DNA of 35,476 nt, from the NCBI GenBank assembly GCA_023511565.1, contig JAIMBE010000007.1:1-35476 (forward strand). Direction: 5' to 3'. The position numbers and the translations under genes are program-made. The notes under the pieces are model-generated. The model was not told where the DNA came from and made no database searches. It worked only from the letters and a program-made list of their open reading frames with translations. This DNA comes from Bacillota bacterium. Lineage in GTDB: Bacteria; Acidobacteriota; Terriglobia; Acidiferrales; UBA7541. Position 1 is the stretch's first letter; each line of letters starts with the position of its first letter. Positions 19,566 to 35,422 of the stretch are shown here, piece after piece.

Positions 19566-20534
19566 TCACGTTGCCGTGGATTCATCCAGACCGATTTGTT
19601 TGAGCTTGTAGAGCAGCGCCTTGTAGCTGATTTGTAATTCCTGCGCGGCCCGCTTGCGGTTCCAGCGCGTGCGCGACAGCACTTTCAGGATCAATTCCCG
19701 TTCGGCCTGCCGGGAAGCGGCGCGGGCGGCTTCCTTCAGGGAGATGCCCTGGGCCCCGCCGTTCTTGCGTCGCACTTCGGCGGTCTGCCCGTTCAGCTCC
19801 GCCAGCACGGCACGCTCATCGCCCAGCGCGACAATTTTCTTCACTGTGTTTTCCAGCTCCCGGATGTTGCCGGGCCAGGAATGATCCGTCAGAGCGCGCA
19901 GGGCTCGCGACGTCAGCACTGGCTGCGGGCGACCAAACAGATCCGCGTACTTCCTCAGAAAATGCTCCACCAACAGCGGGATGTCTTTCTTGCAATGGCG
20001 CAGCGGGGGTAGCCGCAGGCAAACCCCGTTGATCCGGTAGTAGAGTTCTTCGCGGAAGCGCCCGGCGCGCATCAGCTCTTCCAGGGAGCGACTGGTCGAG
20101 CAGATCAATCGCGCTTCCGGCAGCGACTGGGCTCCGTTGCTCTCCGGCAGCACGTGCAACAGTTTCGGTTGCAGGACAGGGTCCAGCTCTGCGACCTCGT
20201 CGAGAAACAGGGTCCCGCCGAAGCCATTCGCGCCCAGACCCGCTTCTCCACGCAGCAGCCGATCGAGCGTCTCCAGATGCGTCAGCGCCGCGCAGTTCAC
20301 CTTGATGAACGGTTTCTGGCTCCGCCGCGAGCGTCGGTGCAGCTCCAGCGCAACGACTTCTTTGCCGGTTCCACTCTCCCCGTGCAGCAACACGGGAATA
20401 TCCGTGGGGGCGATGTCCTTGATGAATCGCTCCAGGGCCTGCATTGCAGGACTGCTCCCGCAGATAAACGACCGCACTTCCGCTCCGGCCAGCGGGTCTT
20501 CGAGCACCATCGCTTCCGTTACCTTGAGTTCCAT
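19566..20534 (-). CDS. Degenerate sigma-54-type AAA+/Fis regulator without GAFTGA
   Basis: A 322-residue NtrC-family protein without a receiver. It keeps Walker A (LLHGESGTGKEVVALELH), Walker B (GTLFLDEVAEL), the SWPGNIRELEN sensor-2 segment and a Fis-type helix-turn-helix at the end (WNRKRAAQELQISYKALLYK). Between NCAAL and GTLFLDE there are only 22 residues (THLETLDRLLRGEAGLGANG, then FG), about 11 fewer than in its two relatives in this window, and GAFTGA is gone. The usual PPLRERxxDIP is PPLRHCKKDIP, losing one arginine. ATG 20534 has GGAGG 5 nt away; TTG 20555 is less likely. First gene of the long EPS operon; probably a DNA-binding modulator rather than a classical activator. Confidence 0.9.
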   Translation of the reverse strand: MELKVTEAMVLEDPLAGAEVRSFICGSSPAMQALERFIKDIAPTDIPVLLHGESGTGKEVVALELHRRSRRSQKPFIKVNCAALTHLETLDRLLRGEAGLGANGFGGTLFLDEVAELDPVLQPKLLHVLPESNGAQSLPEARLICSTSRSLEELMRAGRFREELYYRINGVCLRLPPLRHCKKDIPLLVEHFLRKYADLFGRPQPVLTSRALRALTDHSWPGNIRELENTVKKIVALGDERAVLAELNGQTAEVRRKNGGAQGISLKEAARAASRQAERELILKVLSRTRWNRKRAAQELQISYKALLYKLKQIGLDESTAT

Positions 20535-20591
20535 CCCTGCCTCCGGAATTTTCAAACCGGACAGAGCAATGTTTTGTACCCGCCGATAACT

Positions 20592-20607
20592 TGCACGGCG
20601 GATGCCA
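20592..20607 (-). promoter_or_regulatory. Sigma-54 promoter of the long EPS operon
   Basis: On the minus strand the sequence is TGGCATCCGCCGTGCA. GG and GC are exactly 10 nt apart, as in the -24/-12 consensus TGGCAC-N5-TTGCA; the -12 box is GTGCA. The predicted start of transcription is near 20582, giving a leader of about 47 nt before the regulator ATG at 20534. Confidence 0.6.
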
Positions 20608-20821
20608 CCCGGAGAGGCATGAAACCGAAAAAGCCTCCGTGAGTAAGTCTTTTCCTGGAAGTGGGTTGGAGGTATCTGTCTTCATCACCGCCCGCATGCT
20701 CGCCCAATCGAGTTCGAGCAGGCTTCCATTAAGTGGCAACAATTTTCCCTCGCAGCTGGCCTGCACCTGCCCTTGGGTTTGGAAAGCTCCTACGCTAAGG
20801 CTTTTTTTATCTGCAAATTGA

Positions 20822-20870: not shown

Positions 20871-20886
20871 AGGAAATGGTTTTCTT
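20871..20886. promoter_or_regulatory. Putative enhancer site 1 (GGAAA-N4-TTTCT)
   Basis: AGGAAATGGTTTTCTT is a near-perfect inverted repeat with the same half-sites and 4-bp spacer as the site at 20891-20906; the two centres are 20 bp apart (about two helical turns). The centre lies about 125 bp upstream of the predicted xrtA transcription start, a typical enhancer distance for sigma-54 activators. Confidence 0.55.
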
Positions 20887-20890
20887 AGAT

Positions 20891-20906
20891 TGGAAAGAGT
20901 TTTCCA
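20891..20906. promoter_or_regulatory. Putative enhancer site 2 (TGGAAA-N4-TTTCCA)
   Basis: TGGAAAGAGTTTTCCA is a perfect inverted repeat with 6-bp arms and a 4-bp spacer, centred about 105 bp upstream of the predicted xrtA start. A third copy differing by one arm base lies upstream of the TPR gene (23638-23653). It is probably bound by one of the Fis-type regulators; which one is unknown. Confidence 0.6.
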
Positions 20907-20977
20907 CACAATCGCCCTCAGCTTTTCATTTCTTCTTCGCAATAAAAGGCTTACGACCGTGTAAGTTATGCTTCGGT

Positions 20978-20993
20978 TGGCAGAAGGATTGCT
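20978..20993 (+). promoter_or_regulatory. Sigma-54 promoter of xrtA-epsI
   Basis: TGGCAGAAGGATTGCT matches the -24/-12 consensus closely: TGGCA, correct 10-nt spacing between GG and GC, and TTGCT. Transcription would start near 21003, about 33 nt before the xrtA ATG. Confidence 0.8.
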
Positions 20994-21036
20994 CGAGAGA
21001 GTCATCTGCAAGACAGTTTGCCATCCGCATTAGTAA

Positions 21037-21933
21037 ATGAGCACGGTGACCGAGCGCTGGGCAGCTTCCGAGACTGAACACCGATTCGATTGGCATCGGT
21101 GGGTCTGGCCCGCCGCCTTGTTGGCGCTGCTGGTGGGGTTTCTCTATGCGGACGTGCTCGCACGACTCGTCCGCGACTGGTGGAACGACCCCGATTTCTC
21201 TCACGGTTTTTTTGTGCCGGCATTTGCCGGCTTTGTGATCTGGCAGCGACGCCACCAACTGGCCCGGCTCCCGCTGCAACCTTCCTGGCTGGGACTGGCG
21301 GTGATTGGCGGTTCGCTCTGCACGCTGATTGTCGGCGTGCTCGGCGCTGAGCTGTTCCTACAGCGGTCTTCCTTTGTACTGCTGCTGACGGGTCTGGTGA
21401 TCCATTTTTTCGGCTGGAGCTGGTTCCGCGCTCTGCTGTTTCCGCTGGCCTGTCTTTTCCTGATGATTCCGATCCCCTCGATCCTCTACAACCGGATCGC
21501 TTTTCCGCTGCAACTGCTGGCATCGGAGATTGCCGCGACCGTGCTGGCTGTTCTCCGGGTGCCGGTTTTGCTGGAAGGCAACGTCATTCGGTTGCCGTAC
21601 ATGATGCTGGAGGTGGTGGAAGCGTGCAGCGGACTCCGTTCGCTGGTCTCGCTCCTCACGCTGGCCGTCATCTACGGACATCTGTTCGAACCGAATCTGT
21701 TTCGCCGCGCGGTGCTCGTGCTGGGTGCCGTGCCCGTGGCGGTGTTGGCCAATTCCATGCGCGTCGCCGGGACCGGCCTGCTGGGCCATTACTGGGAACC
21801 GGAAAAAGCCCAGGGATTCTTCCATACCTTTTCCGGCCTGGTGGTCTTCCTGATCTCCTTGTTTCTCCTGTTTGCCCTCCATGGGACCCTGCACGTGCTT
21901 CAGGGGTGGTGGAGTCGGAGGAAAACTCTGTGA
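21037..21933 (+). CDS. xrtA: Exosortase XrtA (EpsH-type transpeptidase)
   Basis: A 298-residue polytopic membrane protein with about eight helices. It recognises the PEP-CTERM tail of surface proteins, cleaves it and probably transfers the protein to an acceptor in the cell envelope. The catalytic triad residues can be seen: Cys197 in VVEACSGLRSLVSLLTLA, Arg242 in LANSMRVAGTGLLGHYW, and His263 in GFFHTFSGLVVF. The N-terminal WNDPDFSHGFFVPAFAGFVIW is also conserved in the family. It overlaps epsI by 4 bp, as in other XrtA loci, and is driven by a strong sigma-54 promoter. The neighbouring EPS genes support the XrtA subtype rather than another exosortase. Confidence 0.97.
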   Translation: MSTVTERWAASETEHRFDWHRWVWPAALLALLVGFLYADVLARLVRDWWNDPDFSHGFFVPAFAGFVIWQRRHQLARLPLQPSWLGLAVIGGSLCTLIVGVLGAELFLQRSSFVLLLTGLVIHFFGWSWFRALLFPLACLFLMIPIPSILYNRIAFPLQLLASEIAATVLAVLRVPVLLEGNVIRLPYMMLEVVEACSGLRSLVSLLTLAVIYGHLFEPNLFRRAVLVLGAVPVAVLANSMRVAGTGLLGHYWEPEKAQGFFHTFSGLVVFLISLFLLFALHGTLHVLQGWWSRRKTL

Positions 21934-22577
21934 AACTGACCTCCCTACGCTTCCTCGCCGTGGTGGTTCTGCTAGTTGGCGCGGCTGCCTTTCTTGAAGC
22001 GCGCAGCCGGCCCGAACAACTGCCGCCGCGCAAGATGCTCGAAGAATTTCCTCACGTTCTCGATGCGTGGGTCGGGCGCGATCTTTCCATCGCCGAGGAC
22101 GTTCAACAGGTGCTCGGGGCCGATGATTACCTTGTGCGACTCTATCAGCACAGTCCCGACGAACCCCCGATCGATCTGTTCATCGTCTTTTTCAACAGTC
22201 AGCGCACCGGAGCCACGATCCATTCCCCGCAGAACTGTCTCCCCGGTGCCGGGTGGGCCCCCATCGAGCAGGGGCGCTTGACGATTGAGTTGCCCGACCG
22301 CGAACCAATCACGGTCAACCGCTACATTATCGCCAAAGGATTGGACCGTCAGTTCGTTCTGTACTGGTACCAGGCTCATGGGCGCGTCGTCGCCAGCGAA
22401 TACTGGGCCAAGTTCTTCCTGGTCGCCGATGCGATCCGCATCAATCGCACTGACGGGGCTATGGTTCGCGTCCTCAGCCCGATCGGAAGAGAAGAGTCTG
22501 TCCAGGAGAGTGAGCAGCGCGTCGTCGAGTTCGCCCGCCGAACCTATCTTCAGCTCGGCGAATTCATCCCCGAATAG
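21930..22577 (+). CDS. epsI: EpsI family protein, exosortase partner
   Basis: A 215-residue protein with an N-terminal membrane anchor (LTSLRFLAVVVLLVGAAAFL) and an extracytoplasmic EpsI domain. The domain contains the characteristic cysteine motif HSPQNCLPGAGWAP and the segment YWYQAHGRVVASEYWAKFFL. EpsI is regularly encoded beside, or fused to, exosortases and is needed for polysaccharide production in known systems; its biochemical role is unclear. The start is GTG at 21930, overlapping the xrtA stop (GTGA) and preceded by GGAGGA. An apparent extension to 21624 lies wholly inside xrtA and is rejected. Confidence 0.93.
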   Translation: MKLTSLRFLAVVVLLVGAAAFLEARSRPEQLPPRKMLEEFPHVLDAWVGRDLSIAEDVQQVLGADDYLVRLYQHSPDEPPIDLFIVFFNSQRTGATIHSPQNCLPGAGWAPIEQGRLTIELPDREPITVNRYIIAKGLDRQFVLYWYQAHGRVVASEYWAKFFLVADAIRINRTDGAMVRVLSPIGREESVQESEQRVVEFARRTYLQLGEFIPE

Positions 22578-22622
22578 CTGTTCCTTGGCCCGAACGTGCT
22601 TCCCAAACGCTGTCCAGAGAAA

Positions 22623-22638
22623 GATTCAAGGTTTTCCA
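22623..22638. promoter_or_regulatory. Half-site of the GGAAA/TTTCC motif
   Basis: The right half GGTTTTCCA matches the enhancer-like sites, but the left arm (GATTCA) does not. It sits about 160 bp upstream of the PEP-CTERM gene's sigma-54 promoter. Weak support only. Confidence 0.25.
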
Positions 22639-22663
22639 AGACCATGCCCAACGGCATTCTTAA

Positions 22664-22692
22664 AGTTTGCAAAGTCATGCACATTCCAAACT
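22664..22692. repeat. Inverted repeat AGTTTG-N17-CAAACT
   Basis: Six-base perfect arms flank a 17-nt spacer, about 100 bp upstream of the PEP-CTERM gene's promoter. It could be a regulator site or part of a transcript hairpin after epsI. Confidence 0.3.
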
Positions 22693-22708
22693 CAAAGGTC
22701 AGAAACGA

Positions 22709-22745
22709 GGTTCTAAAAAACTGCTTTTGTTTTTAACCTTTTTAT
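22709..22745 (+). terminator. Hairpin with T-run after epsI
   Basis: GGTT and AACC close an AT-rich stem (AAAAAC with GTTTTT) and are followed directly by a T-rich tail (22739-22745). This would end the xrtA-epsI transcript and separate it from the PEP-CTERM gene promoter downstream. Confidence 0.6.
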
Positions 22746-22790
22746 TCTGTGAAAGTTGGCGATGTTGCGGGGCTGGCCTCTTTTCGACTT

Positions 22791-22806
22791 TGGCCCGAAA
22801 GTTGCT
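22791..22806 (+). promoter_or_regulatory. Sigma-54 promoter of the PEP-CTERM gene
   Basis: TGGCCCGAAAGTTGCT has TGGC and TTGCT with the correct 10-nt GG-GC spacing. The predicted start is near 22817, giving a leader of about 57 nt before the ATG at 22874. The -24 box lacks the A of TGGCA. Confidence 0.75.
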
Positions 22807-22873
22807 GAGAATGAAGAAGTGGCTGACGCGGTGCCAAGGGTAAGACCTCAGGAGAGGGGGGGGTGAAAGAAAC

Positions 22874-23596
22874 ATGCGGAAACGATTGAGTTGGCTGGTT
22901 GTGGTGGGTGTGGTGGGATTGTTGTGCGTCCCAACGCTGCAGGCAGACGATGTCACTGAGTGGGCGACCGGCAGTGGGGCCACGGCCGGCGGCCAGCCGG
23001 TAAGTGCGTCTGCGGTCATTACGGTCGGTCCTGGCGGCACCGTAACCGTTCAGCTCTTCAACAATCAGGCCAATCCCATCAGCCGGAGTCAAGCCGTCAG
23101 CGGCCTCATTATCTTTTTCAGCGATGGGACTACTTCCGGCACGATCACCAGCAGCTCCTCGACTTTGATCAACATTAATTCCGATGGCTCGGTCACCAAT
23201 CTCGGATCTACCTCGACGGGCTGGAAAACAGAGGCTTCCAGTGGTGGCCTTTCCATCTGCACCATTTGTCCGAACACCGGAAATGCTTTCGCTCCGCCCT
23301 CGAACCTGCTGATTGGTCCTCCAGATAGTGGAGGCACCTACAGTGCGGCCAACGCTTCCATTACGGGAATATTCCCGGGTCCTCCGGATCCGTGGCTGCA
23401 AACGGCCGCTACGTTCAACCTGAACATTCCTGGCCTTTCCCCTGGAGCCACGGTGGTGGGTGTGATTTTCCTGTTCGGGACTGACTCGGAGCAGGTCCCC
23501 GGCGTACTTATTCCCGAGCCCGGCACGATGGCCTTAGTGGGCACCGGCTTGATCGCAATTGGCCGCCAGTTGCGTCGGCGCCGCAAGTCAGCATAG
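22874..23596 (+). CDS. PEP-CTERM sorting-domain protein
   Basis: A 240-residue exported protein and the only visible XrtA substrate in the window. It has a Sec signal peptide (MRKRLSWLVVVGVVGLLCVP, cleavage near LQA-DD). A Ser/Thr/Gly-rich body follows that is low in Lys and Cys and probably beta-structured. The C-terminal sorting signal has the motif IPEPGT (residues 213-218), then a hydrophobic segment (MALVGTGLIAIG) and a basic end (RQLRRRRKSA). Cys129 and Cys132 form a CTIC pair in mid-protein. The ATG at 22874 follows a G-rich ribosome-binding region, and its own sigma-54 promoter lies upstream. It is likely a surface or matrix protein linked to the exopolysaccharide. Confidence 0.95.
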   Translation: MRKRLSWLVVVGVVGLLCVPTLQADDVTEWATGSGATAGGQPVSASAVITVGPGGTVTVQLFNNQANPISRSQAVSGLIIFFSDGTTSGTITSSSSTLININSDGSVTNLGSTSTGWKTEASSGGLSICTICPNTGNAFAPPSNLLIGPPDSGGTYSAANASITGIFPGPPDPWLQTAATFNLNIPGLSPGATVVGVIFLFGTDSEQVPGVLIPEPGTMALVGTGLIAIGRQLRRRRKSA

Positions 23597-23637
23597 GAAC
23601 AGGATTTTTGCAGCGTGCGGCTAGACGTGCGGTGAAA

Positions 23638-23653
23638 GGGAAAACTTTTTCCA
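23638..23653. promoter_or_regulatory. Putative enhancer site 3 (GGGAAA-N4-TTTCCA)
   Basis: GGGAAAACTTTTTCCA differs from the site at 20891-20906 in one arm base and in the spacer. Its centre is about 173 bp upstream of the predicted sigma-54 start for the TPR gene. The sequence could also form a weak transcript hairpin after the PEP-CTERM gene, so the two readings compete. Confidence 0.5.
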
Positions 23654-23750: not shown

Positions 23751-23792
23751 GGAATAGGAGCAAGTCCGCGGATGGCTTTATCGTTTCGGGCG

Positions 23793-23808
23793 TGGCGGAG
23801 GAATTGCA
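23793..23808 (+). promoter_or_regulatory. Sigma-54 promoter of the TPR lipoprotein gene
   Basis: TGGCGGAGGAATTGCA has correct -24/-12 spacing and a perfect TTGCA -12 box. The predicted start is near 23818, about 80 nt before the ATG at 23898. Confidence 0.78.
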
Positions 23809-23897
23809 ACGCTTTGCAGCGGAGTGTTTTGTTACACCGGTCAGGATCGGCTACACGGAGTCCGGAAAAACGAAATTCGAGAAAGGTGAAGTTTCCG

Positions 23898-26192
23898 ATG
23901 CGTGCACCTCGTTGGTTTGCCCTAGCTGTCCTCATTGGTTTGACGGCGGGCCTGCTTGCGGGTTGTTCCCGCGACCCCAATGTCCGCAAACAAAAATATT
24001 TCGAGAGCGGCACGCGCTATTTCGAAGCCGGCCAATATCGCGAAGCGGCGATTCAGTATCTGAATGCGGTCCAGGTGGACCCCTCTTTTGCCGAGGCCCA
24101 TTACCAACTGGCGCAGTGTTACATGCGACTGGGGGCCTGGACAGCGGCCTATCAGGAGCTCCTCCGCACTGTTGACCTGGCTCCAGAAAATCTGAAGGCC
24201 CAGATCGAACTGGGCAATCTGCTGCTCGCCGGCCACGAATTCCAGGCGGCGCAGGAGCGCGCTGAACTGGTTCTGCAGAGAGATCCCAACAACGTGGAAG
24301 CGCACATCCTGCTGGCCAACTCGTACGCGGCGCTGCAGAATCTGCCGGCTTCGCTCGCGCAGATGCAGAAAGCCATCCAGCTCGATCCCGACCGCGCACG
24401 CAGCTATCTGAATCTGGCCTTTCTGCAGGCGAGCGCCAAGCAGGTGGCGGCTGCCGAAGCCAGCTTTCTGCGGGCCATCGAGCTGGATCCCCAGTCCGTG
24501 CCCGCGCGGCTGGCGCTAGGCAATTTCTATCAGCAGCAGCAGAAGTGGGAACGCGCCGAAGAACAGTTCCTGCGTGCTGCCGAGCTCGAACCGGGCAATC
24601 ACCTTCCGGTGGCAGCCCTGGCCCGGCTCTATCTTGGACGGAATCAACGCGAACGTGCCGAACAGCTCCTGCGGGACGCCCGGCCGCGCTTCACCAACAA
24701 TCCGGAAGGATATCGTCTGCTCGGCGACTTCCTGTTTGCCGTGGGGGATCTGGATCGCGCCCTGGAAGAATTTCTCGCTCTTTACGGTGAGCACCCGCGT
24801 GATCTGACTGTCAAAAAAAATCTGATCCAGTTGCTGATTCTTCGCGACCGTCTGGAAGAAGCTACGCGGCTGAATGACGAAATCCTCAAGGAAAACTCGC
24901 GGGACCTGGAAGCGTTGATCTATCGCGGACAGATTCTGAATCGCCGCAGGTTGTACGACGACGCCATTCAAGTGCTCCAGTCCGCCGTGAAAACGGATGC
25001 CAACAACGCGGTCGCGCTCTATCACCTGGGCGTGGCGTTCAGTCAGCTGGGCAACCTGGCCCGCGCCGAGAGCGAATGGCGCGAAGCGGTACGGGTGAAT
25101 CCGCGCATGAGCGGAGCGCTGCAAGCGCTCGCCGCCGTGGGTTTGCGACGGAACGACTTCGAACTGGTGGCCTCCAGCGCCGAAGGGCTGATTGCGGCTG
25201 AGCCCTATTCGCCCAACGGCTACGTGTTGCGCGCGATGGCCCGCATCGCCCACAGGAATTTTGCCACCGCAGAAGCGGACTTGAACACTGCGCTGCGCCT
25301 GGCGCCGGAGTCTCCCGTCGTTTACACCCGCCTGGCGGGCTTGCGCCTGCTCCAGCAGCGTTCCGCAGAGGCCGAAAGGCTGTACGAAACCGCTTTGCAG
25401 AAAGACCCGGCGCATGCGGAAGCCCTGCGCGGCCTGGTGGCCGTCTATGTGCAGCAGAAGCGTCCAGACCGTGCAGTGCAGCGCGTCGAACGCCAGATTG
25501 CCCAGGCCCCGGACAGCAGCCAGCATCGCCTGCTCTATGGCCGACTGCTGGCCGCCAACGGACAGAACGACCGCGCCCGCGAGCAGTTGCAGCGTGCCGT
25601 CGAACTCGACAAGAACAATGTGGAGGCCTTCCTCACGCTCGGTGCGCTGCTCGCCGCGCAGGGCTCGGTCGAAGACGCCGTGGCTACCTACGAACGGGCC
25701 ATCCAGGAAAATCCCCGTGAGGTGCGCAGCTACATCCTGCTTGCCGCACTGGAAGATGAAGTCCGCGGCAACTGGCAGCGCGCCCAGCAGCTCTACGAAA
25801 AGGCGCTGCAGGTGGAGCCCGACTATCCGGTCGCGGCCAACAACCTGGCCTATTTGATGCTGCAGCGCGGCGGCAACGTGGACGTGGCCCTCTCGCTGGC
25901 CCAGACCGCCCGGAGCAAGCTGCCCGAGCTGCCCAACGTAGCGGATACGTTGGCGCTGGCCTACTATCGCAAAGGCGCCTACGGCCTGGCCATTGACCTG
26001 CTCAAGGAAGCTCTGGAAAAAGCCCCCGACAACCCGACCTACCACCTGCACATCGGTTTGGCCTATCAGAAATCGAACCAACCGGAGCGGGCGCGCCGAC
26101 ATCTGGAGCGGGCTCTGGCGCTGGCGCCGCAGCATCCAGAAGCCGCCGAAGCCCGCCAGGTGCTGGCGCAGCTCGGGGGAAGCTCTGATTGA
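23898..26192 (+). CDS. prsT: XrtA/PEP-CTERM system TPR-repeat lipoprotein (PrsT-like)
   Basis: A 764-residue secreted lipoprotein. The signal peptide MRAPRWFALAVLIGLTAGLL ends in the lipobox LLAGC, and the acylated Cys is about residue 23. Almost the entire remainder is tandem 34-residue TPR units (about twenty), for example YLNLAFLQASAKQVAAAEAS and the repeated A-x-x-x-Y/F-x-x-A pattern. It matches the large TPR lipoproteins confined to XrtA/PEP-CTERM loci, whose role may be periplasmic scaffolding of export or sorting. The ATG at 23898 is chosen because the signal peptide begins there; the frame is open to 23772, which would overlap the sigma-54 promoter. It is followed directly by the deacetylase gene without a gap. 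Confidence 0.93.
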   Translation: MRAPRWFALAVLIGLTAGLLAGCSRDPNVRKQKYFESGTRYFEAGQYREAAIQYLNAVQVDPSFAEAHYQLAQCYMRLGAWTAAYQELLRTVDLAPENLKAQIELGNLLLAGHEFQAAQERAELVLQRDPNNVEAHILLANSYAALQNLPASLAQMQKAIQLDPDRARSYLNLAFLQASAKQVAAAEASFLRAIELDPQSVPARLALGNFYQQQQKWERAEEQFLRAAELEPGNHLPVAALARLYLGRNQRERAEQLLRDARPRFTNNPEGYRLLGDFLFAVGDLDRALEEFLALYGEHPRDLTVKKNLIQLLILRDRLEEATRLNDEILKENSRDLEALIYRGQILNRRRLYDDAIQVLQSAVKTDANNAVALYHLGVAFSQLGNLARAESEWREAVRVNPRMSGALQALAAVGLRRNDFELVASSAEGLIAAEPYSPNGYVLRAMARIAHRNFATAEADLNTALRLAPESPVVYTRLAGLRLLQQRSAEAERLYETALQKDPAHAEALRGLVAVYVQQKRPDRAVQRVERQIAQAPDSSQHRLLYGRLLAANGQNDRAREQLQRAVELDKNNVEAFLTLGALLAAQGSVEDAVATYERAIQENPREVRSYILLAALEDEVRGNWQRAQQLYEKALQVEPDYPVAANNLAYLMLQRGGNVDVALSLAQTARSKLPELPNVADTLALAYYRKGAYGLAIDLLKEALEKAPDNPTYHLHIGLAYQKSNQPERARRHLERALALAPQHPEAAEARQVLAQLGGSSD

Positions 26193-27270: not shown

Positions 27271-28350
27271 TCAGTCTGCCGACTGCTCTGCCGCCAGCTC
27301 TCCGAGGGAAACAGACTGAGGCCGTGCTCGTTTTGCCGGCAGGCCGGCTTGGCGGATCTTGTAGAGCAACGCTCGGTAGCTGATATTCAGCGCTCGTGCA
27401 GCGCGTTTGCGGTCCCAACTGTTCGCTTCGAGCACCTGCAGAATGACCTTCCGTTCCAGCTCGAGCACCGCCTGCCGGGTCAGTTTCTTCAGGGAAATGG
27501 AGCCGTCTGCCGGGAGGTGCGGGTCCAGATAGGATGGTTCCGGCCCGCGCGCCATCAGTTCGTCGGTCATGGCCTCTTCCGAGCCCAGAATCACGTAGCG
27601 CTTCATCAGGTTTTCGAGTTCGCGGATGTTGCCAGGCCAGGAGTGCTTCTGGAGCTGCCGCATCAGTTGCGGGGACACTGGCTTGACCGGCCGGTTGTAT
27701 TTTTCGCCGTACACGTGCAGAAAGTAGTCCACCAGTTCCGGGATGTCCTCGGTGCGCTCGCGCAACGGTGGCAGCTCAATATTCACCACATTGATGCGGT
27801 AGAACAGGTCTTGGCGGAAGTTACCGGCCTCGATTTCGTCTTCGAGTTGTCGGTTCGTGGCGCACACCACGCGCACTTCGACCTTTTTGTCTTCCTGGGC
27901 GCCGATCCGGCAGAACTGCCCGTCCTGGAGCAGCTGCAGAAGTTTGGCCTGCAGAGCGGGCTCCAGTTCGCCGACCTCGTCGAGGAACAGCGTGCCGCGA
28001 TGCGCCATCTCCACCCGGCCGGGCTTGGTGCCATAGGCGCCGGTGAACGCGCCCTTTTCGTAGCCGAACAGCTCGCTTTCCAACAGCGTGCCGGGGATCG
28101 CCGGGCAGTTCACCTTGACGAACGGTCCGCTCGCCCACGGCGAGTGCCGGTGCAACAGCTTGGCCACCATCTCCTTACCCGTGCCGCTCTCGCCGCGAAT
28201 GAGCACCGGGACGTTGGCCGTGGCCACTTTCTCCACTTTCAGGCGCACGATCTGCATCGCTTCCGAGCGGCCATAGATGATGTGCTCGGGAGGAATATCG
28301 TTCGTCGGGACTGACAGCGATGGGCGGGGCTGGGCCGCAGTGGACATCAT
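27271..28350 (-). CDS. Orphan sigma-54-dependent activator (AAA+/Fis, no receiver)
   Basis: A 359-residue NtrC-family activator without an input domain. After about 35 variable residues comes the intact AAA+ domain: Walker A (LIRGESGTGKEMVAKLLH), GAFTGA (LFGYEKGAFTGAYGTKPG), Walker B (GTLFLDEVGELEP), arginine-finger region (PPLRERTEDIPELV) and sensor 2 (SWPGNIRELEN). A C-terminal Fis-type helix-turn-helix ends the protein (WDRKRAARALNISYRALLYK). With no receiver or sensor domain, activity may be controlled by level or a partner. The start is ATG 28350 (MMSTAAQ); the frame runs open to 28740 without coding character. It faces the EPS deacetylase gene convergently and is preceded by its own sigma-54-like promoter. 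Confidence 0.93.
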   Translation of the reverse strand: MMSTAAQPRPSLSVPTNDIPPEHIIYGRSEAMQIVRLKVEKVATANVPVLIRGESGTGKEMVAKLLHRHSPWASGPFVKVNCPAIPGTLLESELFGYEKGAFTGAYGTKPGRVEMAHRGTLFLDEVGELEPALQAKLLQLLQDGQFCRIGAQEDKKVEVRVVCATNRQLEDEIEAGNFRQDLFYRINVVNIELPPLRERTEDIPELVDYFLHVYGEKYNRPVKPVSPQLMRQLQKHSWPGNIRELENLMKRYVILGSEEAMTDELMARGPEPSYLDPHLPADGSISLKKLTRQAVLELERKVILQVLEANSWDRKRAARALNISYRALLYKIRQAGLPAKRARPQSVSLGELAAEQSAD

Positions 28351-28729
28351 GTTCTCAATCCATACTGTTCTCTGCACACTGTGCGCCAAAATCCAACTCT
28401 GTTGCCGGCCTGTGGGAGTTTGTAGGAAAATTCCCCGGGACCTTTGTAGTTCCATGTAAACAAAGCGTTTAGGGACGAACCCCGTTCGCGCGTGCCAATC
28501 CATCACCCTGCCGAGAGGGCCGGCCACGGGCCGGTCTCGGAAGGAAAAGCTTTGCATAGCAAGGAAGTTTGTTTCCCTAGCCTGACGGATTTCTTCCAGT
28601 ACGGGAACGGAGGCTCGCCCAGGATCGGTTTTACACCTGCTGGGCAGGGGGTGCCGGGTCATCTTTGGCTGGATAAGGCTCGCACCGGATACGCGTCTGG
28701 GCGTATACTCGGTGGTGTCCTTCCCGCTT
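28351..28729. other. Divergent intergenic region between activator and transporter genes
   Basis: This 379-bp stretch has no gene. It holds a sigma-54-like promoter for the leftward activator (28373-28388) and a GGAAAATTCC palindrome near 28428-28437. A possible -10 box TATACT lies at 28704-28709 for the rightward transporter, without a clear -35. Confidence 0.5.
28373..28388 (-). promoter_or_regulatory. Sigma-54-like promoter of the orphan activator gene
   Basis: On the minus strand the sequence is TGGCGCACAGTGTGCA: TGGC, 10-nt GG-GC spacing and a GTGCA -12 box. The predicted start near 28362 leaves a short leader of about 12 nt. This is weaker than the xrtA, TPR and PilZ promoters. Confidence 0.5.
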
Positions 28730-29977
28730 ATGAACCGCAAGGTGCTCGCCAGTTGGTGTCTGTACGACTTTGCGAACTCCTTCTATGCCGTGTTGCCCGC
28801 GGTGCTCTGGACGGTGTACTACCGCACGGTGATCGTCGGCAACGAGCAGGGACTGGGCGATCAGTGGTGGGGCCGAGCCATTTCTTCGGCGATGCTGATT
28901 GTCGCCGCGACCTCGCCGATGATGGGAGCCCTTGCCGACTATGCCGGAGTGCGCAAGCGGCTGCTGCTCCTCTACACGTTGATGGCCGTGGGGGCCGTGG
29001 GTCTGTATGCCACCGTCGAGCCGGGCATGGTGCTGTGGGGGCTGGCGGTCACTGTGGTTTCCCACGTTGGGTTCGAGGGCGCACAGGTCTTCTACAACTC
29101 CTATCTGCCCGAACTGGTTCCCCGGGAATATCAGGGCCGCGTTTCAGGCTGGGGATTTGCCACAGGCTATGCCGGTTCGTTGCTTGCCTTGGTCATGGCT
29201 CTGCCGCTGGCCGAGCGCGGGCATTTTGATCTGACCTGGCTTCTGATTGCCGGCGCCTTCCTGCTGTTTTCCCTGCCGGCCTTTTTTTGGCTGCCCGGGG
29301 ATCGTCCGGCCCGGCTCGGTGCCGGAGAAGCCGCGGGTGCCGGGATGCGCGAATCCTGGCGCACCTTCCGCGACATCCTGCGTCTGCGCGAAACGCGGCG
29401 TTTCCTGCTGGCGTACTTTTTCTACGAAGACGGCGTGAACACGGTCATCATCTCCGCGGCTGCCTTTGCCAGCATGACCCTGCGGTTCCAGACGTCCGAG
29501 CTGATCTTGTTGTTCGCCCTCGTGCAGATTTCGGCGCTGGCGGGTGCCTATTTGTGGGCGCGACCGACCGACCGGCTCGGTCCTCGCCGCGTTGTTCTGC
29601 TGCTGCTCGTGCAGTGGATTGCCGTTGTGACGGCTTCTTACTTCGTCTCCTCGACACAGTCGTTCTTTGTCATTGCCGTACTCGCCGGCAGCGGCCTGGG
29701 CGCAATCCAGGCGGCCTCGCGCGCCTTCATGGCGGGACTGATCCCACCCGGACGCGAGGGCGATTTCTTCGGTTTCTATCACCTGTGCGGGAAGTCGGCA
29801 GCGGTGCTCGGCCCACTGCTGTTTGGCGAAATCTCTGCGGCCACGTCCGGGAATCAGCGCCTGGCCATTCTTTCGGTGCTGTTGCTGTTTGTGATCGGCG
29901 GGTTGCTGCTGAGCCGCGTCCGGGCTGGTGGGCCGACGGTCGTGCCTGCCCGCCCCCTGCAGTCCCCGGCTTCCTGA
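28730..29977 (+). CDS. UMF1-type MFS transporter
   Basis: A 415-residue polytopic membrane protein with about 12 helices. The N-terminal signature KVLASWCLYDFANSFYA is typical of the UMF1 (Atg22-like) branch of the major facilitator superfamily. Further conserved stretches include SPMMGALADYAGVRKRLLLL and GAIQAASRAFMAGLIPPGRE. The substrate is unknown; relatives move small solutes or amino acids. ATG 28730 is preferred to GTG 28712 because it begins the conserved N-terminus. It is not clearly part of the EPS locus, though it lies between two of its regulators. It is convergent with the CBS protein gene across 28 bp. Confidence 0.9.
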   Translation: MNRKVLASWCLYDFANSFYAVLPAVLWTVYYRTVIVGNEQGLGDQWWGRAISSAMLIVAATSPMMGALADYAGVRKRLLLLYTLMAVGAVGLYATVEPGMVLWGLAVTVVSHVGFEGAQVFYNSYLPELVPREYQGRVSGWGFATGYAGSLLALVMALPLAERGHFDLTWLLIAGAFLLFSLPAFFWLPGDRPARLGAGEAAGAGMRESWRTFRDILRLRETRRFLLAYFFYEDGVNTVIISAAAFASMTLRFQTSELILLFALVQISALAGAYLWARPTDRLGPRRVVLLLLVQWIAVVTASYFVSSTQSFFVIAVLAGSGLGAIQAASRAFMAGLIPPGREGDFFGFYHLCGKSAAVLGPLLFGEISAATSGNQRLAILSVLLLFVIGGLLLSRVRAGGPTVVPARPLQSPAS

Positions 29978-31951: not shown

Positions 31952-32281
31952 CTAGGCCGTTCCCGTTTCGGCGCGGATGATGTCGTATTTCTCGATGACC
32001 GCGGCGATGCCCACCGGCAGCTCGCCGTTCTGTCGTCGCTCGACGCGGACGACGCGGCCATAAGCGCGAATGTAAACCTCCGGGCCGCGGGTGATTTCTG
32101 CCGGGAGGGTCAGCGTGAAATCGAGCTCCATGCCGGGGGTCATTTCCCGATGCACCGTGAAGTAGACGCCCCGCGTGGAGATGTCGCGCGTGCGCCCGCT
32201 GCTGTGCTCTGGTTCCGAGGCTGTCCGGATAACCACGGGCAGAGAAAGTTCATAACGACGAGCCATGCGGCGCTCGGTCAT
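31952..32281 (-). CDS. PilZ-domain protein (probable c-di-GMP receptor)
   Basis: A 109-residue single-domain PilZ protein. The N-terminal basic motif RRMARRYELSLPVVI contains the RxxxR c-di-GMP binding pattern (arginines 5-9 region). The second motif TRDISTRGVYFTV matches D/NxSxxG. Both halves needed for c-di-GMP binding appear present. ATG 32281 is used; the internal ATG at 32266 is an alternative that would cut into the RxxxR motif. A near-perfect sigma-54 promoter lies about 60 bp upstream, placing this c-di-GMP receptor in the same control system as the EPS and PEP-CTERM genes. Confidence 0.92.
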   Translation of the reverse strand: MTERRMARRYELSLPVVIRTASEPEHSSGRTRDISTRGVYFTVHREMTPGMELDFTLTLPAEITRGPEVYIRAYGRVVRVERRQNGELPVGIAAVIEKYDIIRAETGTA

Positions 32282-32341
32282 AAAGGGTTGTCCCCCTCTC
32301 TACAAAATTCAGCTTCCATCTTGCCCGTGTTGCTAAAAACT

Positions 32342-32357
32342 AGCAATCACAGTGCCA
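32342..32357 (-). promoter_or_regulatory. Sigma-54 promoter of the PilZ gene
   Basis: On the minus strand the sequence is TGGCACTGTGATTGCT. It matches TGGCAC-N5-TTGCW fully, with the exact 10-nt GG-GC spacing. Predicted transcription start near 32331, giving a leader of about 50 nt before ATG 32281. This is the best -24/-12 match in the window. Confidence 0.85.
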
Positions 32358-32419
32358 AAGCAGTGTTTTTCGCCAGCCTCGAAGCTTCCACTGTGAATTT
32401 GTGGTCCTGGCCCCAGTCT

Positions 32420-32434
32420 AGTTTCGCGGAAACT
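32420..32434. repeat. Palindrome AGTTTC-GCG-GAAACT
   Basis: Six-base perfect arms with a 3-bp spacer, about 70 bp upstream of the PilZ gene's -24 box. The position suits an activator site. It resembles but does not match the GGAAA-N4-TTTCC sites, because arm order and spacing differ. Confidence 0.4.
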
Positions 32435-32633
32435 CTAAGCCCAAGTAAACCTTGGTATTACAAAGAGTAAACGGCATCGCCATCGCGCTCGGGGAGGAGT
32501 TGCGCGCTTCGGGACGATGATCGGTTCGGCGAAGAACACCCCAGTCAGCGCCAAACCTGTTGCCCACCACCTCTTTGCTGCTTTGACGAGCCATTCTGCT
32601 GCGATGAATGTGCAACAGATTGCATTCCAGACC

Positions 32634-34073
32634 CTAATGTCCGGTCTGCGGTATCGGAGCTGCGGGGCTTGAGCGGGCTCCCCGTCCCCCATCGATTTTG
32701 AACTGGCGCATCTTATAGAGCAACGCCTTGTAGCTGATTCCCAGCAGGCGCGCGGCTTCTTTGCGGTTCCAGTTGGTTTTTTCCAGCGCGTCTGCGATCG
32801 CTTCCATTTCTGCTTCGTCCTTCAAGCTGCGCACCAGCGCCTTCAACCCTTGTTCGCGGGGCTGGGCCGGCTCTTCCCGCGGGGAGGTGCGCTGACGGGT
32901 GGCAGCCATTTCCAGCAGTTCGCGGAAGCTCGATTCGTCATCCTCCAGAATCACATACCGCTTTACGAAATTTTCCAGCTCGCGCAGGTTACCCGGCCAG
33001 GGATAGCGCATGGCCGCTTCCAGCAGGTGGTCGGAGGGTAGGCGCGGTTGTTTGTTGTATTTATCTGCGTACTTCTCCAGGAAGTGCTGGAACAGCATGG
33101 GGATCTCGCGTGCCCGCTCGCGCAGGGGCGGCACGTGGATGGAGAACACGTTCAACCGGTAGTAGAGGTCTTCGCGGAACCGGCCGCAGCGGATGGCCTC
33201 CCGCACATTCACATTGGTAGCCGCCAGCACCCGCACGTCGGAGTGCACCAGGTGCCGGCCGCCGAGCCGCGAAAACTGGTGGTCCTGGAGCACATGCAAC
33301 AGCTTCGCCTGCAGGTGGGTGGGCATTTCTGCAATTTCATCCAGGAAGATCGTCCCTTTGTTCGCCAGCTCAAACTTGCCTGGCTTGAGCCGTACGGCAC
33401 CCGTGAAAGCTCCCTGTTCGTAGCCGAAGAGCTCGGATTCCAGCAGCTCGCCCGGCAAGGCCGCGCAATTCACCTTGATGAAGGGTTGAGGGGCCCGGGG
33501 CGAGCGCAGATGAATCATCCGCGCCACAACTTCTTTGCCGACGCCGCTCTCGCCGGAGATGAACACCGGCACGTCCACCGGTGCAATCTGCAGAATCTGC
33601 TGCCGGATTTTCACCATTTGCGGGCTGGCGGCCAGGAAGCTGAGATCTTCGGTCAACTGCTCGCAGTATTCCCGCAGGGCCTGGTTTTCCGCACGCAGTT
33701 GCCGTTTCTGGCGGCACTTCAGCATGGCCGCATCGAGCTCGGATTTTTCAAACGGCTTTGTCAGGTAGTCATAGGCGCCCAGGCGGATCGCTTCGACTAC
33801 CGTGCTCACCTCATTGGAACAGGAGAGCATGATCACGTTCAGGGTGGGGTCGATCTGCATCATCCCGCGCAGGGTCTCAAGGCCGTCCATCTCCTCCATC
33901 AACACGTCGAGGATGATGAAATCCGGGCGGTCTCCAGCGCCGATGCGTTCGAGCGCTTCTTTGCCGCTGGTGACGGTTTCCACCTCGTACCCATCCACTT
34001 CCAGCAGCGTCTGCAGGTACTTGCGGATGCTGGGTTCATCATCCACGACCAGGATGCGTTCTTTTCCGGCCAT
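32634..34073 (-). CDS. NtrC-type sigma-54 response regulator
   Basis: A 479-residue activator. The receiver domain has acidic pocket residues in ILVVDDEPS, the phosphoacceptor Asp56 in FIILDVLME, Ser84 and Lys106 in YLTKPFEK. The AAA+ domain has Walker A (ISGESGVGKEVVARMIH), GAFTGA (LFGYEQGAFTGAVRLKPG), Walker B (GTIFLDEIAEM) and the PPLRERAREIPMLF arginine-finger region. The Fis-type DNA-binding end is WNRKEAARLLGISYKALLYK. It lies 30 bp after its kinase gene. In role it corresponds to the PrsR regulators of PEP-CTERM systems, and is the best candidate to fire the sigma-54 promoters in this window; orthology to PrsR is not proven. Confidence 0.95.
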   Translation of the reverse strand: MAGKERILVVDDEPSIRKYLQTLLEVDGYEVETVTSGKEALERIGAGDRPDFIILDVLMEEMDGLETLRGMMQIDPTLNVIMLSCSNEVSTVVEAIRLGAYDYLTKPFEKSELDAAMLKCRQKRQLRAENQALREYCEQLTEDLSFLAASPQMVKIRQQILQIAPVDVPVFISGESGVGKEVVARMIHLRSPRAPQPFIKVNCAALPGELLESELFGYEQGAFTGAVRLKPGKFELANKGTIFLDEIAEMPTHLQAKLLHVLQDHQFSRLGGRHLVHSDVRVLAATNVNVREAIRCGRFREDLYYRLNVFSIHVPPLRERAREIPMLFQHFLEKYADKYNKQPRLPSDHLLEAAMRYPWPGNLRELENFVKRYVILEDDESSFRELLEMAATRQRTSPREEPAQPREQGLKALVRSLKDEAEMEAIADALEKTNWNRKEAARLLGISYKALLYKMRQFKIDGGRGARSSPAAPIPQTGH

Positions 34074-34103: not shown

Positions 34104-35321
34104 TCACTCGAAATCGGTGGGCAGCAAAAATGTGAACGTGGCCCCGCGGCCGACTTCGCTGTCCACCCAGATCTTTCCGCGGTGGGCCTGAATCAGGCGC
34201 TTGGCAATCGCCAGCCCCAGTCCCATCCCGGAGGAAGAACGGTCTACGCGCACGAAATCTTCGAAAATTTCCTGATGAAACTCCGGGGCGACCCCCGGAC
34301 CGCTGTCGGCGACAGACACCTTCACGCTGTTGAACGGCGAGGCCTGGGCCCGCCGGCGTTCCACCGCCGGCACCAGGTGGGTGGCGCGCCGCTCCCAGAA
34401 ATGCGGTTCGGCCGTGATCCGGATGCGGCCGCCTGCCGGCGTGTGCTTGAGGGCGTTGTCCAGCAGGTTCACGATGACCTGCTGCACCTTCTGATAGTCG
34501 AATTTGAACGGGGGAAGTTCAGGCGCCAGGTGCGTTTCCAGCCGCACCTGCTTGCGGAGTGCGGCATCATGCCAGCGGGAAGCGATCTCTTCGATGCAGT
34601 CCCGCAGATCGTTTAGTCGGATGTGCAGCACCAGCTTGCCGCTTTCCAGCGCCGAGTAGTTCAGGAACATGGACACCAGGCGCACCAGTCGCTCGCAGCT
34701 TTCTTTGGATTCCTGCAGGATTTCCCGCTGCTTTTCGTTCAGTTTGCCGAGCGAGCCGGACAACAGCAGGTCGTAATAGCCTTTCATCACGGCCAGCGGA
34801 GTCTTCAGTTCGTGCGCCGCCGAAGCCAGAAACACGGTCTTCTGCCGATTCACTTCCTGCAGCCGCAGGTAGGCGGCCAGAAGATTCCGATAGGTAATCT
34901 CACGCTCCCGCAGCAGATCCTGCATGGTCTGGTGCAAACTGCTGTCCTCAACCACCTTGGCCGGCGCTTCCAGATGGACGACCAACCAGTTCGGCTCCGG
35001 CAGCCAGCGAATCCGCAACCGGACGGGCTCGCCCTGGCATTCCACCGAGTGACAGACTTCCTGCTCGCCGCTTTCCAGCGGAGCAAACACACTACAGGCA
35101 TCCAACCGCAGCAGATCCGCAAACAGGTTGGAGCGCTCCGTTCCGCTGAGCTTGAGGCCATGCTCGTCCAGGCATTGCTGCGCGCGAAGATTCGCATGCA
35201 GGATCCGTCCACTTCGCTCCGCCACCAGCAGCGGCCGATCCAAACCGTCCAGCAGCGAGGAGATCAGAGAGAGGGCGAGCAGGCCCCCGTTCTGCTGCTC
35301 CAGAGTAATCGCCTTTTCCAA
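34104..35321 (-). CDS. Soluble PAS-containing sensor histidine kinase
   Basis: A cytoplasmic histidine kinase of about 405 residues. An N-terminal PAS-like domain (SSLLDGLDRPLLVAERSGRI) is followed by a coiled linker, a HisKA domain with the phosphoacceptor His in FLASAAHELKTPLAVMKGYY, and a HATPase domain. The ATPase boxes are NLLDNALKHTPAG (N), VADSGPGVAPEF (G1) and SSGMGLGLAIAKRLI (G2). No membrane helix is present, unlike the membrane-spanning PrsK kinases of other PEP-CTERM systems. The start is uncertain: TTG 35321 has an ideal GGAGG, while TTG 35354 or GTG 35339 are alternatives. It is translated just upstream of its partner response regulator. Confidence 0.92.
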   Translation of the reverse strand: MEKAITLEQQNGGLLALSLISSLLDGLDRPLLVAERSGRILHANLRAQQCLDEHGLKLSGTERSNLFADLLRLDACSVFAPLESGEQEVCHSVECQGEPVRLRIRWLPEPNWLVVHLEAPAKVVEDSSLHQTMQDLLREREITYRNLLAAYLRLQEVNRQKTVFLASAAHELKTPLAVMKGYYDLLLSGSLGKLNEKQREILQESKESCERLVRLVSMFLNYSALESGKLVLHIRLNDLRDCIEEIASRWHDAALRKQVRLETHLAPELPPFKFDYQKVQQVIVNLLDNALKHTPAGGRIRITAEPHFWERRATHLVPAVERRRAQASPFNSVKVSVADSGPGVAPEFHQEIFEDFVRVDRSSSGMGLGLAIAKRLIQAHRGKIWVDSEVGRGATFTFLLPTDFE

Positions 35322-35422
35322 GCACCCCTCCGCAGACACCCCGTAAGTTTTCAATCTTAAGATTTCCGAAGGTGAGGGTTCCTTTGGTTAGGTTGCCGTG
35401 TACAGGTAAGCGGCGATAAGGA

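Follow-up and report, generated by a model that had tools for sequence, protein, structure and literature searches.

The window analyzed here is a stretch of 35,476 nucleotides that corresponds to contig C203 in the genome (2.6 Mb; G000) of a soil-type acidobacterium and carries a PEP-CTERM/exosortase locus, in which we studied the regulatory elements, above all a palindrome of the form GGAAA-N4-TTTCC (class A) lying upstream of the exosortase gene. On the plus strand are found xrtA, which encodes the exosortase (21037–21933), epsI (DUF3485; 21930–22577), a gene for a PEP-CTERM protein (22874–23596), prsT (23898–26192; TIGR02917) and the gene of an XrtA-system deacetylase. The product of prsT passes the PrsT profile TIGR02917 (336.2 bits; curated cut-off: 312.2). 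The minus strand codes for one histidine kinase (34104), three enhancer-binding-type regulators (19566, 27271 and 32634, named after their first position) and an export protein. Footprinting was carried out against a sister species (G001), and genome-wide tests were done by pattern searches. In G000 and G001, the PEP-CTERM gene separates epsI from prsT, and prsT has a class A site and a sigma-54 promoter of its own; in a distant relative (G011), epsI is immediately followed by prsT within an operon headed by the xrtA promoter, and in G002 prsT comes soon after epsI, so that the xrtA promoter can serve xrtA, epsI and prsT in these two genomes.

Three class A palindromes, none assigned to a strand, occur in the window: AGGAAATGGTTTTCTT (20871–20886) and TGGAAAGAGTTTTCCA (20891–20906), arranged in tandem upstream of xrtA with their centers 20 bp apart, and GGGAAAACTTTTTCCA (23638–23653), upstream of prsT. 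These positions and the tandem spacing are those given in a preliminary description of the sequence, which further placed the sites about 125, 105 and 173 bp before the xrtA and prsT starts; such distances (−125, −105 and −173) hold relative to the predicted transcription starts (~21003 for xrtA and ~23818 for prsT); measured from the start codons, at 21037 and 23898, they do not fit. The exact form, GGAAANNNNTTTCC, is present twice in the 35 kb window, at xrtA and at prsT, for 0.01 occurrence expected from dinucleotide shuffles, i.e., about 200 times above chance. When two mismatches are allowed, the motif becomes far less special (23 matches vs. 12.9 expected).

Sequences with GG at −24 and GC at −12, separated by ten nucleotides, were identified at 20977, 22790 and 23792 on the plus strand and at 20608 and 32358 on the minus strand, all five being kept in G001. 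They correspond to predicted sigma-54 promoters of xrtA (TTGGCAGAAGGATTGCT, 20977–20993; GG and GC also kept in G002), of the PEP-CTERM gene (TTGGCCCGAAAGTTGCT, 22790–22806), of prsT (GTGGCGGAGGAATTGCA, 23792–23808), of regulator gene 19566 (GTGGCATCCGCCGTGCA, 20592–20608; 16/17 in G001, with a counterpart in about ten relatives) and of a PilZ gene, those of xrtA and of the PEP-CTERM gene being among the best-scoring of the window. The gene for sigma-54 itself, rpoN (PF04552), was found in G000 (as a partial copy at a contig end), in G001 and in four of five further relatives in which it was sought. At roughly 80–200 bp upstream of sigma-54 promoters, a conserved palindrome is present: class A at xrtA, at prsT and at a glycosyltransferase/FemAB-like operon located elsewhere in the genome, where the distance from TGGAAACTAATTTCCC to the sigma-54 promoter is 202 bp and both elements are kept in G001, and a second palindrome (class B, see below) at the PEP-CTERM gene. 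For gene 19566, the probable enhancer is an A-like element (element C, CCATTAAGTGGCAACAATTTTCCC, 20726–20749, no strand), which is identical in G001 over positions 20733–20749 (17/17) and which, in nine genomes, stands 138–144 bp upstream of the promoter of 19566.

The class A sites are conserved amid diverged flanks. The main xrtA copy and the prsT copy each retain 15 of 16 positions in G001, the rest of both gaps being 57–59% identical, and the prsT site is among the best-conserved 16-mers of its gap. The first tandem copy reaches only 8/16 by base alignment to G001, yet G001 does have it (CGGAAACAGTTTTCTT, at a spacing of 21 bp to the main copy), and in G011, of which xrtA is ~65% identical to ours, an exact tandem pair with a 20 bp spacing stands 98 bp above the promoter. 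Altogether, an exact class A palindrome precedes xrtA in 5 of 18 genomes (our own included), for 0.014 expected; two xrtA loci of Acidobacteriaceae (L038 and L039) have neither class A nor class B. The enhancer-type placement put forward in the preliminary description is thereby supported by the sequences, both in the position of the sites upstream of sigma-54 promoters and in the recurrence of the two-turn spacing (G001 and G011). The same description had staked its proposal on conservation of the motif at orthologous promoters, which we observed at xrtA and prsT but not for the half-site that it reported before the PEP-CTERM promoter.

Because the class A palindromes lie upstream of sigma-54 promoters and are conserved in related species, they are very probably landing sites of an activator, and we put the probability that class A is a sigma-54 enhancer (upstream activating) site at about 80%, a figure that excludes the identity of the regulator. 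In the mechanism that we propose, a sigma-54-dependent enhancer-binding protein bound to class A would switch on xrtA-epsI, prsT and the distant glycosyltransferase operon and, through element C, the divergent regulator gene 19566. Its dimers would occupy the palindromes, forming at xrtA a pair separated by two helical turns, and assemble an AAA+ ring, which a DNA loop would bring to the sigma-54 polymerase waiting at the −24/−12 promoter.

Several points weigh against this interpretation. First, the upstream tandem copy at xrtA is degenerate, with three mismatches to TGGAAAN4TTTCCA. Second, although it speaks for the site that class A also occurs ~180–245 bp before the kinase gene of the 34104/32634 operon in five relatives (G001, G002, G013, G014 and G024; our contig ends before the equivalent region, upstream of kinase 34104), in these five genomes no sigma-54 promoter was found at that class A site, the promoter being sigma-70-like by eye (TTGACA and TATT-like stretches). 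Third, a strict pattern combining class A and a sigma-54 promoter returned five matches in 89 genomes vs. two for the reversed pattern; these five correspond to xrtA in G000 and G002, to a sugar locus in G106 and to a locus common to G025 and G093. Fourth, class A at xrtA is confined to one side of a single branch of the tree, so that the relatives are not fully independent and the events are few; class A and class B at xrtA need one change each on this tree (G022, of which the row was misframed, belongs to neither labeled group). Finally, the recognition helices of the three regulators are nearly identical (ISYKALLYK-like), and sequence alone therefore does not tell which regulator goes with which site.

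Class A was also encountered away from exosortase loci. In G106 (L153), an exact palindrome is followed, after ~103 bp, by a strong sigma-54 promoter, both elements being located between glycosyltransferase-like and sugar-nucleotide transferase-like genes, and in G025 and G093 (L149 and L150), which belong to a sister genus, class A and a sigma-54 promoter are kept before an FAD/NAD(P)-binding-like gene. In our own genome, other one-mismatch matches were attributed to chance since no strong sigma-54 promoter is near any of them: those on C165 and C206 are inside reading frames, those on C160 and C173 are in or near gene ends, and the one on C157 precedes a DnaK (Hsp70) gene by ~100 bp. No Rfam element was found to overlap the palindrome sites of the window.

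The second palindrome, class B (TGCAA-N4-TTGCA), is found about 110 bp above the PEP-CTERM sigma-54 promoter as TTGCAAAGTCATGCAC (22667–22682, no strand), with one mismatch in its core, and is exact in G001 (TTGCAACTCTTTGCAC). Combined with a sigma-54 promoter, it yields eight matches in 89 genomes vs. none for the reversed pattern, including the PEP-CTERM genes of G015, G031 and G001. The PEP-CTERM gene seems to be controlled via this other palindrome. The half-site TTTTCCA, which had been proposed as an element of the system, does exist at 22632–22638, but this 7-mer has 11 copies in the window (two strands) and only four of its seven positions are kept in the sister species; being common and unconserved, it is a chance occurrence outside the system. 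Another class B palindrome, TGCAACGCTTTGCA (23805–23818, no strand; 13/14 in G001), overlaps the −12 element of the prsT promoter; this overlap (23792–23818) is present in both species, and its position would suit repression. Class B is also exact upstream of xrtA in G003, G031, G015 and G013; a sister genus has this palindrome both at PEP-CTERM genes and at xrtA. A rewiring of xrtA from class B to class A is nevertheless not supported, because the class B genomes may hold another exosortase lineage; G008 and G020 have two exosortase copies each. Our genome encodes a second PEP-CTERM protein on contig C39 (L043), upstream of which we observed one class B-like site with a mismatch, but neither a class A site nor a clear sigma-54 promoter. 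Class B recurs at 32611, between the response regulator gene and the PilZ gene. In the region 31952–32560, the sigma-54 promoter of this PilZ gene (32358, minus strand) is identical in the sister species; upstream of it, GTTTACT...TTTGTAA and GGTTTACTT are conserved and are reminiscent of TTTACA, with which the PEP-CTERM box of Proteobacteria ends.

All three minus-strand regulators had been named as candidates for binding the palindrome, and two of them could in principle activate sigma-54, judging from their GAFTGA loops: 32634 (32634–34073), an NtrC-type response regulator with a receiver domain (GAFTGA at residue 221), paired with histidine kinase 34104 (34104–35354), and 27271 (27271–28740), an enhancer-binding protein without receiver domain (GAFTGA at residue 230). 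The third, 19566 (19566–20555), combines AAA+ and Fis-type helix-turn-helix (HTH) domains but has lost GAFTGA through a 12-residue deletion, as have its orthologs beside xrtA; devoid of the loop contacting sigma-54, and with its own gene preceded by a sigma-54 promoter, it makes an implausible lone activator, and would probably act as a feedback or sigma-70-type partner. Since a GAFTGA protein is required and the 32634 operon carries a class A site in relatives, 32634 is the best candidate for the class A activator, with odds slightly better than even, in which case it would regulate its own operon too. Counterparts of 32634 occur in 14 relatives of the family (79–95% identity), each with a paired kinase; the protein scores below the cut-off of the PrsR profile TIGR02915 (389.0 bits over nearly its full length vs. 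502.6). G005 and G017 (L123, L124, L142 and L146), two genomes in which no xrtA was found, have their counterparts of 19566 and 27271 near each other; in G017, the 19566 gene is preceded by an exact class A palindrome together with a sigma-54 promoter.

Among the alternatives, the one that fares best, though we consider it rather improbable, is that class A is the operator of 19566, acting from the region shared with xrtA as a repressor or as a sigma-70-type regulator, with the true sigma-54 activator binding elsewhere. Indeed, two class A sites sit between the divergent genes 19566 and xrtA, GAFTGA-less homologs work with sigma-70 (PMC3162934), and a sigma-70-like promoter is seen at the kinase/regulator operon with class A upstream. 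Moreover, class A is found at xrtA only in genomes with 19566 beside xrtA; an ortholog was not found in the xrtA-bearing genomes G003, G013, G015, G025 and G031, and G003, G013, G015 and G031 are precisely those with class B at xrtA, the contig of G025 being too short upstream to tell. Yet class A is absent from xrtA in many 19566-bearing genomes, G013 has class A before its kinase/regulator operon although it is without an ortholog of 19566, and no other conserved palindrome was found at the usual enhancer distance of the xrtA and prsT promoters in G000 and G001. Less probable still is the hypothesis that the activator of class A is 27271 rather than 32634: its gene is in the locus, GAFTGA is present and its recognition helix is very similar, but no class A site combined with a sigma-54 promoter lies upstream of it (in the window and in G001), and it is the 32634 operon that is preceded by class A in five relatives. 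As for the palindromes being due to chance or to another role (RNA hairpins, or DnaA boxes, given that TTTTCCACA at xrtA is one base off the classical DnaA box), we hold this to be very improbable: short palindromes with mismatches are common, but the exact sites are far above chance and kept amid diverged flanks, those of xrtA separate two divergent genes, so that a terminator would have no use there, and the CACA tail of the DnaA box is not conserved at prsT, in G011 and at the glycosyltransferase site, in all of which the palindrome is kept.

The enhancer interpretation of class A could be extended to a split between the enzyme and its substrate, which we advance tentatively and regard as doubtful. 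Class A would then serve the sortase and PrsT, and class B the PEP-CTERM protein, two enhancer classes making the sortase and its substrate separately switchable; 19566 would be a feedback competitor driven via the A-like element C, and the regulator of class B would repress prsT, since a class B site overlaps the −12 element of its promoter. Control of the exosortase system is so far known only from Proteobacteria, with one box before PEP-CTERM genes. If our interpretation is true, concrete DNA boxes would now be available outside Proteobacteria, the sortase gene itself and prsT would be under sigma-54, the enhancer of the enzyme would be separate from that of the substrate and a degenerate enhancer-binding protein would sit inside the circuit. 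With these boxes, other surface-polysaccharide genes belonging to the regulon could also be predicted.

Our search of the open-access literature returned no paper joining exosortase, Acidobacteria and sigma-54, but elements of the system have parallels elsewhere. Regulator 19566 resembles VpsR, TyrR, HupR and the NtrC of Caulobacter in having AAA+ and Fis-type HTH domains without GAFTGA: TyrR, DhaR and HupR depend on sigma-70, and the loop is missing from VpsR as well (PMC3162934), while the NtrC of Caulobacter acts at promoters of the sigma-70 type (PMC12421884). VpsR is also a regulator of surface polysaccharide. However, 19566 differs from these four by the absence of an N-terminal sensor domain, its location behind a sigma-54 promoter and its orientation, divergent to xrtA. 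In Desulfovibrio vulgaris, the sigma-54 response regulator DVUA0057 was located at PEP-CTERM promoters by DNA-affinity-purified-chip (DAP-chip) in an exopolysaccharide context (Rajeev et al. 2011, PMC3333781), but this organism is not acidobacterial and that study has no validated binding motif for DVUA0057. In Aquincola tertiaricarbonis, pepA is an RpoN1-dependent PEP-CTERM gene beside prsT, with a mapped −24/−12 promoter and a predicted upstream enhancer (PMC9850573); there, prsT is unaffected by the loss of rpoN1, whereas here prsT is preceded by a conserved sigma-54 promoter and a class A palindrome of its own. The closest parallel is the proteobacterial arrangement of an activator motif, a spacer and a sigma-54 −24/−12 motif before PEP-CTERM genes, for which PrsR, an NtrC-type regulator with a kinase, is the predicted binder (Haft et al. 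2006, PMC1569441). The motif 1 of that study, described in Proteobacteria only and upstream of PEP-CTERM genes, has 17 nucleotides with TTTACA at its 3' end and a spacer of ~63 nucleotides (PMC1569441). Compared by its text description, this TTTACA end is absent from our palindromes, class A ending in TTTCCA/TTTCCC and class B in TTGCAC/TTGCAA. Our locus shares with the PrsK-PrsR system an activator-type motif followed, after a spacer, by a sigma-54 promoter, an NtrC-type regulator with its kinase and the inclusion of PrsT, but it belongs to Acidobacteriota, uses two other palindromes (with TTTCC and TTGCA arms) and longer spacers, and has one palindrome class at both xrtA and prsT. As far as the sequences indicate, the sigma-54/PrsR control of proteobacterial PEP-CTERM genes has an equivalent here in Acidobacteriota, with DNA boxes of another kind.

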